Assembly (NCBI RefSeq): GCF_018860745.1
Contig: NZ_JAHKPY010000003.1
Location: forward strand, 942,062 to 1,006,061
Origin: Zobellia uliginosa
GTDB taxonomy: Bacteria; Bacteroidota; Bacteroidia; Flavobacteriales; Flavobacteriaceae
Reading direction: 5' to 3'
Length of the DNA stretch: 64,000 nt
A model generated the notes under the pieces. It did no database searches and was not told the origin of the DNA. It was given only the letters and a program-made list of their open reading frames with translations. The position numbers and the translations under genes are program-made. Of this stretch, positions 52,261 through 54,822 are shown in pieces (position 1 is the first letter of the stretch; every line of letters begins with the position of its first letter).

Positions 52261-54822
52261 TTGAAAGAGGATATCAGTATTTCGCAACTGCAGGAAAAGT
52301 TTCCGAACGGAAAGATTAAAACGTATGAAAAGAGTCATACCATATGTTTTATACATAAGAAAGTTTCTATGTTTAGGTGGCTTATAGAAGGTAGTATGGC
52401 GTACTATATTTCTCTAGAAAATCCTGATAAAGATGTATTGGTCTGTCAAAATTCCGAGCCGTTCTCTACTTTAGGCCTAAACGGGTTTACCCCTTCAAAA
52501 CGCTATGTTTACAAGGTTTTGGTGGCTTCTGAAAAAGCGGACTTTTTTGAAATTCCTTTTGAACAGATAGAAACTTATTTGCAGGAGGGACATAAAAACA
52601 TTTTACTCAAAAACATAGGCTCAAAATTATATCACCTGTTGCATACAGCTTTGTTAAAGCAATCGGAACTGTTAAATCCGGTTCGCTTTCAACCGTTTGT
52701 AGAAGATCGTAAGTTTCAAATTTCGCCCGTTGCGGAAAAAGAAGAAGTAATTTCTTTAATGAGGAAATCACCTTTTTTGGATTTTTTTGAGGAGAAACAT
52801 TTGTCCGCTATGGCAACATTGGCTGAGCGCAGGGAATATGAACCGGACGAGGTTCTATATGTGCAGGACGGTTATAGCAACGGTTTGTTTATTTTGATTG
52901 ATGGCGAAGTCTCCATAAAACGCATTGAGAATTCTATAGAGATTAAACAGCGTTCCATTAAAAATTCAGGTTTTGTGTTCGGGTGGTCTTGTCTGCTAAA
53001 GCAAAAAGATAGCTGTTCCGCCATTACACGTACCCGAACTTCGGCCTACTTTATTCATGACCATGATCTCATGAAATTGTTCCATAAAGATGATCAGTTC
53101 GAAGGTCTGTTTTTTAAACGGTTAATATGGCTAATGGGTAACCAGCTTAACGCTGCGTTCATAAGATATGTAGGATTGCTTGGAAAGCATAATCTTCAAG
53201 CGGTTTTTCAGCTGATTAAAAATAATGAATCCCGACTATCGGTTTCTTCTTCTTTGCACCAAGTGTTGCATTTACTGAAGAGTAATAATACAAAGACTCT
53301 GGGATATGACATTTTAAACTCATTATTAGTAAACGGCAGTGCGTTAGAAAGGCATATCGCCTCTTTGAGTTTGGAATTGTTAACGGAGGACCAGAAAGAA
53401 AGCGTTTTTATAAACGGACTGCAGGAAATCTATTCAAACGTGGCAGCAAGGGACACAACGGACCTCGATTTAAATCGGAAAATTTGTGCTACGCTTACCA
53501 TTAAGGTCTTTGAAAATGTACCCTATGTCATTGAAGGATGGGAAAACCTACCGGAGACTACAGGCCACATTTTTACGTATAACCATCTCATAAACGATGC
53601 ACAGTACACCTTAAACAATAGTTTTCAAATTACATTGGATTCCCATTTTATAAGTGCGAAGATTTTGTTTGAAAAATATGGCGAACCTGGTATCAGAACC
53701 GTCCGCATTGGCCGTGGACAAGAATATGGTCACCAAAACTATTACAACAATTTGGGCCATATAAATATATATACCAAAGACTCGGAGAAAACATCATCCA
53801 AAAATGCGAAACAGGCCCGAAACATATTTTATGAAGAAGCCTCCAAACTTCTGAACGATAACTACAACATAATCATTAGCCCTGAAGGAACATCATACCG
53901 AACCGAAGAATCTCCTGGACCTTTTAAAATGGGCGCTTTTAAATTGGCCGCCGGTCAAGAAAAAGAACCGCTTATCGTCCCTATAGTTCTAGTGAATTTT
54001 GATCATAGAATCGGTAGATCCTTGTTCTATTGTAAGATAGGACAGCCGTTTCTTTTAAGTGAAAAAGTAGCATCAAAAATTAAGGGAGATATGCGTGAAT
54101 TTGTACAACAGTACCAAGCGCAATATAAAATTGATGTTCTCAAAGCTAGGGAAAGAGCAGAAGAATTATTTCTGTCGCCGGGTGGCACAGTATTAAATGA
54201 GGAGCCACCAGCCATGTGGGCCAATGAAATTAAAAGGCTGAAAAGAAGGGTTTCAAAACTGAAAACCCAAGAAAACCTGATTGCTGTTTATGGGAGTTCC
54301 TCGGTACGTTTATGGGTGCATATGCAGAAAGATTTATTGCCTTTCCATACGGTAAATCTTGGTTTTGGAGGTTCTACATTTGCCTGGTGTATTCATTATT
54401 TTGATGAGATTTTTGCCGAGGCCAATCCATCTAAAATAGTACTTTATGCTGGTGAGAACGATTTAAACCAAGGTAGAACGCCGCAAGAAGTATTGGCAGA
54501 TTGCCATACCTTGGTGGGAATGGTCAGAGCTAAATATCCAAATGCCGCCTTGGCCTTAATCAGCCTAAAACCAAGTGTAGAGCGCGAGCAAATGATTCCA
54601 TTGATTATTGAAACCAATCTACTGCTTTCAAAATATATAATTACTGAATTAAATGCACAGTATATAAATGTATTTAGCCATATGATCAGTAGTGACAACC
54701 GGCCCATACCTGAACTCTATCTCTCGGACGGCTTGCATCTAAATAAAGAAGGTTATGCTATTTGGAGCAGCGTAATTAAAAACGCGCTGGAGTCTGTAGC
54801 GTTGTTGGAGGTTGAGAAGTGA
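52261..54822 (+). CDS. Fusion protein: two CNB-like domains, PlsC-like acyltransferase and SGNH esterase
   Basis: An 853-residue soluble protein from TTG 52261; an in-frame stop at 52246-52248 and the absence of an earlier ATG leave this as the start (first internal Met is 37). Residues about 10-130 are a degenerate and about 165-285 a clearer cyclic-nucleotide-binding fold (FILIDGEVSIKRI, VFGWSCLL), but the usual phosphate-binding Glu and Arg are missing. A helical linker leads to a PlsC-like domain (about 410-640) with NHLIND at 441-446 (HX3D, not HX4D) and PEGTSYR at 541-547. The SGNH domain (about 670-845) has GSSSVRLW (Ser680), NLGFGGS, GENDLN (Asn733) and DGLHL (Asp823, His826). Suggested role: ligand-gated lipid acyl transfer and ester cleavage. 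Confidence 0.8.
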   Translation: MKEDISISQLQEKFPNGKIKTYEKSHTICFIHKKVSMFRWLIEGSMAYYISLENPDKDVLVCQNSEPFSTLGLNGFTPSKRYVYKVLVASEKADFFEIPFEQIETYLQEGHKNILLKNIGSKLYHLLHTALLKQSELLNPVRFQPFVEDRKFQISPVAEKEEVISLMRKSPFLDFFEEKHLSAMATLAERREYEPDEVLYVQDGYSNGLFILIDGEVSIKRIENSIEIKQRSIKNSGFVFGWSCLLKQKDSCSAITRTRTSAYFIHDHDLMKLFHKDDQFEGLFFKRLIWLMGNQLNAAFIRYVGLLGKHNLQAVFQLIKNNESRLSVSSSLHQVLHLLKSNNTKTLGYDILNSLLVNGSALERHIASLSLELLTEDQKESVFINGLQEIYSNVAARDTTDLDLNRKICATLTIKVFENVPYVIEGWENLPETTGHIFTYNHLINDAQYTLNNSFQITLDSHFISAKILFEKYGEPGIRTVRIGRGQEYGHQNYYNNLGHINIYTKDSEKTSSKNAKQARNIFYEEASKLLNDNYNIIISPEGTSYRTEESPGPFKMGAFKLAAGQEKEPLIVPIVLVNFDHRIGRSLFYCKIGQPFLLSEKVASKIKGDMREFVQQYQAQYKIDVLKARERAEELFLSPGGTVLNEEPPAMWANEIKRLKRRVSKLKTQENLIAVYGSSSVRLWVHMQKDLLPFHTVNLGFGGSTFAWCIHYFDEIFAEANPSKIVLYAGENDLNQGRTPQEVLADCHTLVGMVRAKYPNAALALISLKPSVEREQMIPLIIETNLLLSKYIITELNAQYINVFSHMISSDNRPIPELYLSDGLHLNKEGYAIWSSVIKNALESVALLEVEK

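Follow-up and report, generated by a model that had tools for sequence, protein, structure and literature searches.

The gene at positions 52261-54822 of the window, the whole stretch of 64,000 nucleotides of Zobellia uliginosa DNA that was analysed, raises the question of why one polypeptide should join two cyclic-nucleotide-binding (CNB)-like domains to an acyltransferase (AT) of the PlsC fold and an SGNH hydrolase, and on which substrate such a combination would act. The initial annotation of this DNA had proposed a single-chain, ligand-controlled enzyme that couples the acylation and deacylation of one lipid pool. The architecture, the active sites, the arrangement of the two enzyme domains in relatives and their genomic context each bear on this proposal.

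A CNB-CNB-AT-SGNH fusion in Zobellia

A single open reading frame on the forward strand encodes 853 amino acids in the domain order CNB1-CNB2-AT-SGNH. The features are given below with their window coordinates; conservation counts refer to alignments of 66 divergent sequences for the AT domain, 65 for the SGNH domain and 60 for each of CNB1 and CNB2.

52261..54822, forward strand: whole gene, CNB-CNB-AT-SGNH fusion with a TTG start; AF2 model with mean pLDDT 87 and pTM 0.68
52282..52668, forward strand: CNB1, aa 8-136, cyclic-nucleotide-binding-like fold, from profile matches and AF2 beta strands
52501..52503, forward strand: Arg81 in CNB1, at the phosphate-binding Arg position, invariant (60/60)
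52738..53160, forward strand: CNB2, aa 160-300, Pfam cNMP_binding (E 2.9e-10)
52984..52986, forward strand: Trp242 in CNB2, replacing the ribose-binding Glu (Trp in 59/60)
53191..53406, forward strand: conserved helical linker, aa 311-382, between CNB2 and AT, from AF2 secondary structure
53407..54180, forward strand: acyltransferase (AT) with PlsC/LPLAT fold, aa 383-640, from Pfam, the AF2 domain model and the PDB match to PlsC 5KYM
53581..53598, forward strand: motif I, N441-H442-L-I-N445-D446, from the alignment; N, H and N invariant
53638..53646, forward strand: D460-S461-H462, near-invariant (65, 66 and 66 of 66)
53881..53895, forward strand: motif III, P541-E542-G543-T-S545, from an alignment that includes the PlsC paralogues of the same genome
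54202..54807, forward strand: SGNH/GDSL hydrolase domain, aa 648-849, from Pfam and PDB matches
54298..54300, forward strand: Ser680, nucleophile (65/65)
54370..54459, forward strand: oxyanion residues Gly704 (block II) and Asn733 (block III), each 65/65
54727..54738, forward strand: Asp823 and His826 of the triad (65/65)

The TTG start codon is the sole in-frame option downstream of the preceding stop and is found at the same start in a second Zobellia genome, where the encoded protein is 92% identical. Three Pfam families match above their cut-offs (cNMP_binding at aa 190-276, Acyltransferase at 515-577 and GDSL_2 at 686-834) and agree with the profile and fold matches, which bears out the single-chain fusion that had been claimed; the residues singled out in that claim are all found where they were placed. 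Full-length homologues are collinear at identities from 92% down to about 30%, and their occurrence in many genera, together with the copy in the second Zobellia genome, led to the rejection of a chance or mis-assembled fusion in this 4.86 Mb genome of 15 contigs. A phage origin was also rejected, as the viral contigs (viral_contigs) contain no relative. The linker between CNB2 and AT retains S330, H337-L339, T344, G359 and E363 throughout the alignment. No transmembrane segment is evident in the 853 amino acid protein, where the highest mean hydropathy over 19 residues is 1.16, and no secretion signal is evident either. The genes surrounding the Zobellia copy, which encode an alpha/beta hydrolase, a CarbopepD_reg-like protein and a beta-lactamase-type protein, all lie on the opposite strand and an operon was therefore rejected; among CNB-bearing forms in general, no neighbour besides SGNH is common to distant genera.

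As in CNB-regulated proteins of the CRP/PKA type, the CNB fold stands ahead of an effector domain. CNB1 has no Pfam match and is recognised by its profile matches to the structures of DNR and CRP (E 1.3e-5 and 2.7e-5) and by its similarity to CNB2 (hhalign E 5e-13). Unlike in the CRP/PKA-type proteins, the phosphate-binding cassette is non-canonical in both Zobellia domains, neither of which holds Glu and Arg together. Position 73 of CNB1, where Glu is expected, holds Trp in 32 and Leu in 23 of the 60 sequences; position 252 of CNB2, where Arg is expected, holds Cys in 35, Val in 10 and other residues in the rest, but in no case Arg. The initial annotation had described the cassette as lacking both Glu and Arg, which is accurate for CNB2, with its Trp242 and missing Arg, but not for CNB1, in which Arg81 is kept throughout. 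The absence of the GE-motif Glu from both domains suggests that the putative CNB ligand is not cAMP. Non-canonical CNB cassettes that bind haem or chlorophenols are described in a survey of 30 CNB families (Kannan et al. 2007, PMC2246266), in which the word acyltransferase does not occur.

Active sites of the AT and SGNH domains

A search with the fold of the whole chain was filled by matches to the SGNH domain, and the AT domain was for this reason folded and searched separately. Modelled alone, it reaches a pLDDT of 92 and a pTM of 0.91, and its best PDB match is PlsC from T. maritima (5KYM) with a Z-score of 19.4 and 3.8 Å over 220 residues, followed by GPATs (Z 13-14), PatA (Z 10-11) and LpxM. 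The LPLAT fold expected for the central region is thus upheld by both prediction and structural comparison; homologues with the same domain order exist, and the relatives have not lost both catalytic sets.

The AT domain shares with PlsC (LPAAT, PF01553) the fold, the N-H of motif I, the E-G of motif III and a conserved proline (P574) where motif IV is expected. N441-H442 and P541-E542-G543 are each present in all 66 sequences, and R479, R482, E488 and H491 are invariant or nearly so. The differences are equally consistent. The NHX4D motif of the LPAAT/PlsC family is absent, since residue 447 at the X4 position is never Asp, and the Arg of EGTR is replaced by Ser545 in 66/66. The initial annotation had read an HX3D motif instead, which proves to be a local feature and not one of the family, because position 446, the fourth after H442, is Asp in only 23 sequences but His in 38, the remainder having Asn, Ser, Tyr or Glu there. 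In PlsC, the EGTR Arg and Lys105 position the phosphate of lysophosphatidic acid (PMC6688108). Judged by spacing, D460-H462 would lie near the position of Lys105. With the phosphate-positioning Arg replaced by Ser in every sequence, the acceptor is probably not a glycerol phosphate, and lysophosphatidic acid appears an unlikely substrate.

The fusion to CNB and SGNH domains also sets the Zobellia AT apart from PlsC, as does its status as a non-housekeeping copy: the genome holds seven other PF01553 genes, some with NHX4D and EGTR, for which reason a housekeeping PlsC role was rejected. On contig 1 of the same genome (L136), an acyltransferase with NHX4D and FPEGTR shares a single frame with an RND/MMPL-like membrane protein.

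The SGNH domain is canonical. Blocks I, II, III and V are all present, and S680, G704, N733, D823 and H826 occur in every one of the 65 sequences, in keeping with the complete catalytic set that had been reported for this gene. In structure it comes closest to a carbohydrate O-acetylesterase, the sialate O-acetylesterase of Phocaeicola (Z 25.5), followed by PAF acetylhydrolase Ib (Z 23) and TesA (Z 17), and the domain shares with these SGNH/GDSL esterases both the fold and all four catalytic blocks. It differs from them in being tied to a PlsC-fold AT, with neither secretion signal nor membrane segment evident; stand-alone SGNH relatives in Bacteroidota are separate and widespread genes. Relay transferases such as PatB (PMC12148441) and OafB/OafA (PMC7448272) have an altered oxyanion hole in which the block II Gly is replaced, an alteration that is absent here. 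The canonical oxyanion hole, as read from the alignment, favours a hydrolase.

The AT-SGNH pair in relatives and its link to trehalose synthesis

Relatives were sought in genome_contigs with the AT domain only, blind to SGNH and CNB, and the best 80 of 148 were kept. An SGNH partner is found at all 80 of these loci, fused to the AT in 56 and adjacent to it in 24. They comprise 50 long fusions, 24 proteins that end after the AT domain and six short AT-SGNH proteins without CNB domains; most forms of the module have two CNB-like domains at the N-terminal end. At all 24 split loci, the SGNH protein is encoded by the gene that follows in the same orientation, with a gap of -38 to +56 bp, and these SGNH proteins are 31-47% identical to the Zobellia SGNH domain and have the full catalytic set. 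The CNB-less AT-SGNH form is about 460 amino acids long and found in marine flavobacteria with small genomes. On the tree, in which several branches are long, the state switches between fused and split at least two to three times. That the partner is fused or adjacent in all of the best 80 relatives, with changes by fusion or fission on the tree, is strong evidence from gene arrangement that AT and SGNH act together. Of the coupled acylation and deacylation first envisaged, the evolutionary link between acyltransferase and esterase is thus upheld (80/80), but the lipid pool as its substrate is not.

The relatives belong to Flavobacteriaceae, Cytophagales, Sphingobacteriaceae, Candidatus Dadabacteria and related 'Deltaproteobacteria' MAGs, and a Persicobacter plasmid record also carries a copy of the module. 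A few loci call for individual comment. In Maribacter litopenaei (L069:5553-7419), counted among the 50 long fusions, the N-terminal portion and the remainder of the protein lie in different frames; an open frame of 622 codons is left, and the gene may be broken or mis-sequenced. The split-type locus of a MAG labelled Rickettsiales (L103) falls inside Marinoscillum on the tree, which suggests that the MAG is misbinned or mislabelled. In Flammeovirga (L120-L124, for example L120:954-4508), a protein of about 1180 amino acids with WD40 repeats and a caspase domain (Peptidase_C14) is encoded directly upstream of the split module on the same strand.

The CNB-less loci have a distinct context. In seven of 13, OtsA-OtsB (GT20 and trehalose phosphatase), or OtsB at a contig edge, lies directly upstream of the module, either overlapping it by 4-14 bp or 3 bp apart, and in five of the loci with OtsAB a GH15 trehalase gene is divergent. 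The CNB-bearing forms, that of Zobellia included, are not adjacent to OtsAB, as judged from the neighbourhoods of both the module and OtsAB.

The association recurs at the level of genomes. After removal of three duplicates recognised by coordinates, GT20 is present in about 71 of 76 module-bearing genomes as compared to 58 of 395 in a Bacteroidota background; of the five genomes without a GT20 match, two come from single cells and have OtsB next to the module, at the edge of a contig. In Flavobacteriaceae, GT20 occurs in 13/13 module-bearing genomes and 84/286 others (p 2.5e-7), and in the Dadabacteria phylum in 14/15 and 13/43 (p 2e-5), p-values that ignore kinship and overstate the evidence because module-bearing genomes share descent and fall into few clades. 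In Sphingobacteriaceae, where 92 of 131 genomes have GT20, the difference is not significant (3/3 versus 89/128). All three module-bearing members of this family (including L164/L165) have two GT20 genes, one of them divergent, while two are found in only about one sixth of the family sample. The direction of the association, from module to GT20 and not the reverse, recurs in separate lineages. With the phosphate-acceptor Arg of PlsC lost and a gene context that points to trehalose metabolism, the acceptor may be a sugar instead of a glycerolipid, to which the closest structural match of the SGNH domain, a carbohydrate esterase, would also fit.

A proposed acylation cycle and its alternatives

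It is tentatively proposed, at somewhat less than even confidence, that AT and SGNH form a conserved cytoplasmic pair for acylation and deacylation, with a sugar-type acceptor linked to trehalose and a non-cAMP ligand as the gate. Relying on H442, AT would draw an acyl group from acyl-ACP or acyl-CoA and attach it to the hydroxyl of an acceptor other than glycerol phosphate, for which trehalose or a glycolipid derived from it is the likeliest candidate. SGNH would remove the same acyl group by means of S680-D823-H826, so that the pair would set the level of acylation of one pool. The balance between the two activities would be shifted by the CNB domains in response to a small non-cAMP ligand, which Arg81 of CNB1 may help to bind; in species without CNB domains, co-expression with OtsAB may take the place of gating by a ligand. 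The co-occurrence with trehalose genes could mean a shared stress response and not a shared substrate, and the closest fold of the modelled AT is still PlsC, an LPA acyltransferase, which is an argument against trehalose as the acceptor.

Both of these points recur in a rather doubtful, though serious, alternative, in which the module serves Lands-cycle remodelling: AT would reacylate a lysophospholipid or lyso-aminolipid, SGNH would be the matching lysophospholipase or acylhydrolase, and the link to trehalose would reflect only a common response to desiccation or osmotic stress. The closeness of AT to PlsC (Z 19.4), the further matches of SGNH to PAF acetylhydrolase and TesA and the separation of CNB-bearing forms from trehalose genes are consistent with such a role. 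However, it has to accommodate the loss of the usual HX4D Asp and a Ser for the EGTR Arg in all AT sequences, and the translational overlap with OtsAB in CNB-less forms is tighter than a loose stress regulon requires. The same two losses in the AT motifs could alternatively mean that the domain no longer transfers acyl groups and acts as a sensor that binds lipid or acyl-ACP and, with the CNB domains, controls the SGNH esterase; this is improbable, as the conservation of N441, H442, D460, S461, H462, R479, R482, E488, H491 and the PEG, complete or almost complete across 66 divergent sequences, resembles that of an active site. Least probable is a two-step relay, in which the PlsC-fold domain would pass the acyl group to Ser680 and SGNH would transfer it to a sugar, as in the AT3-SGNH and MBOAT-SGNH pairs outside the cell: it would explain the obligate fused-or-adjacent pairing seen in the best 80 of 148 relatives, which is also a trait of those systems (PMC12148441, PMC7448272), and the sugar-linked gene context, but a transferase with a true esterase is likelier because all 65 sequences retain the Asn of block III and the Gly of block II, the latter being replaced in PatB and OafB/OafA, and because there is neither a membrane segment nor, in the cytoplasm, a membrane to cross.

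The proposed cytoplasmic pair has its nearest counterpart in these export systems. In AT3-SGNH (OatA, OafB) and MBOAT-SGNH (PatA/PatB) proteins, the SGNH partner completes acyl transfer to a sugar (PMC12148441, PMC7448272). As in the Zobellia protein, an acyltransferase is paired with SGNH in fused or separate form, and the known cases act on sugars; the differences lie in the soluble PlsC fold in place of a multi-pass membrane enzyme, the canonical oxyanion hole, the lack of export and the presence of CNB domains. A literature search confined to papers outside subscription did not find the CNB-CNB-AT-SGNH combination, and the acyltransferase-SGNH pairs found in it are membrane systems for the decoration of extracellular sugars, from which a soluble PlsC-type pair differs. 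Its retention in Bacteroidota and Dadabacteria in association with trehalose synthesis suggests an undescribed intracellular acylation cycle, for which trehalose supplies a concrete substrate candidate. The question of the ligand becomes directly testable through Arg81, which is invariant, and through the Trp found in place of the ribose-binding Glu.

A more specific form of the proposal, which is considered unlikely, is a reversible acyl-trehalose switch, where a soluble PlsC-type enzyme in the cytoplasm of Gram-negative cells would acylate trehalose or a glycolipid that contains it, its SGNH partner would reverse the reaction and a non-cAMP ligand bound by the degenerate tandem CNB domains would exert control. 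If true, the enzyme would represent a new class among those that acylate sugars, and the pathway would be, to our knowledge, the first for a trehalose lipid in Bacteroidota or Dadabacteria. In one marine flavobacterium (L132:4891-5781), a gene resembling 3-keto-disaccharide hydrolases is located just upstream of the CNB-less module; enzymes of this kind act on oxidised disaccharides, and its presence may fit the link to trehalose.
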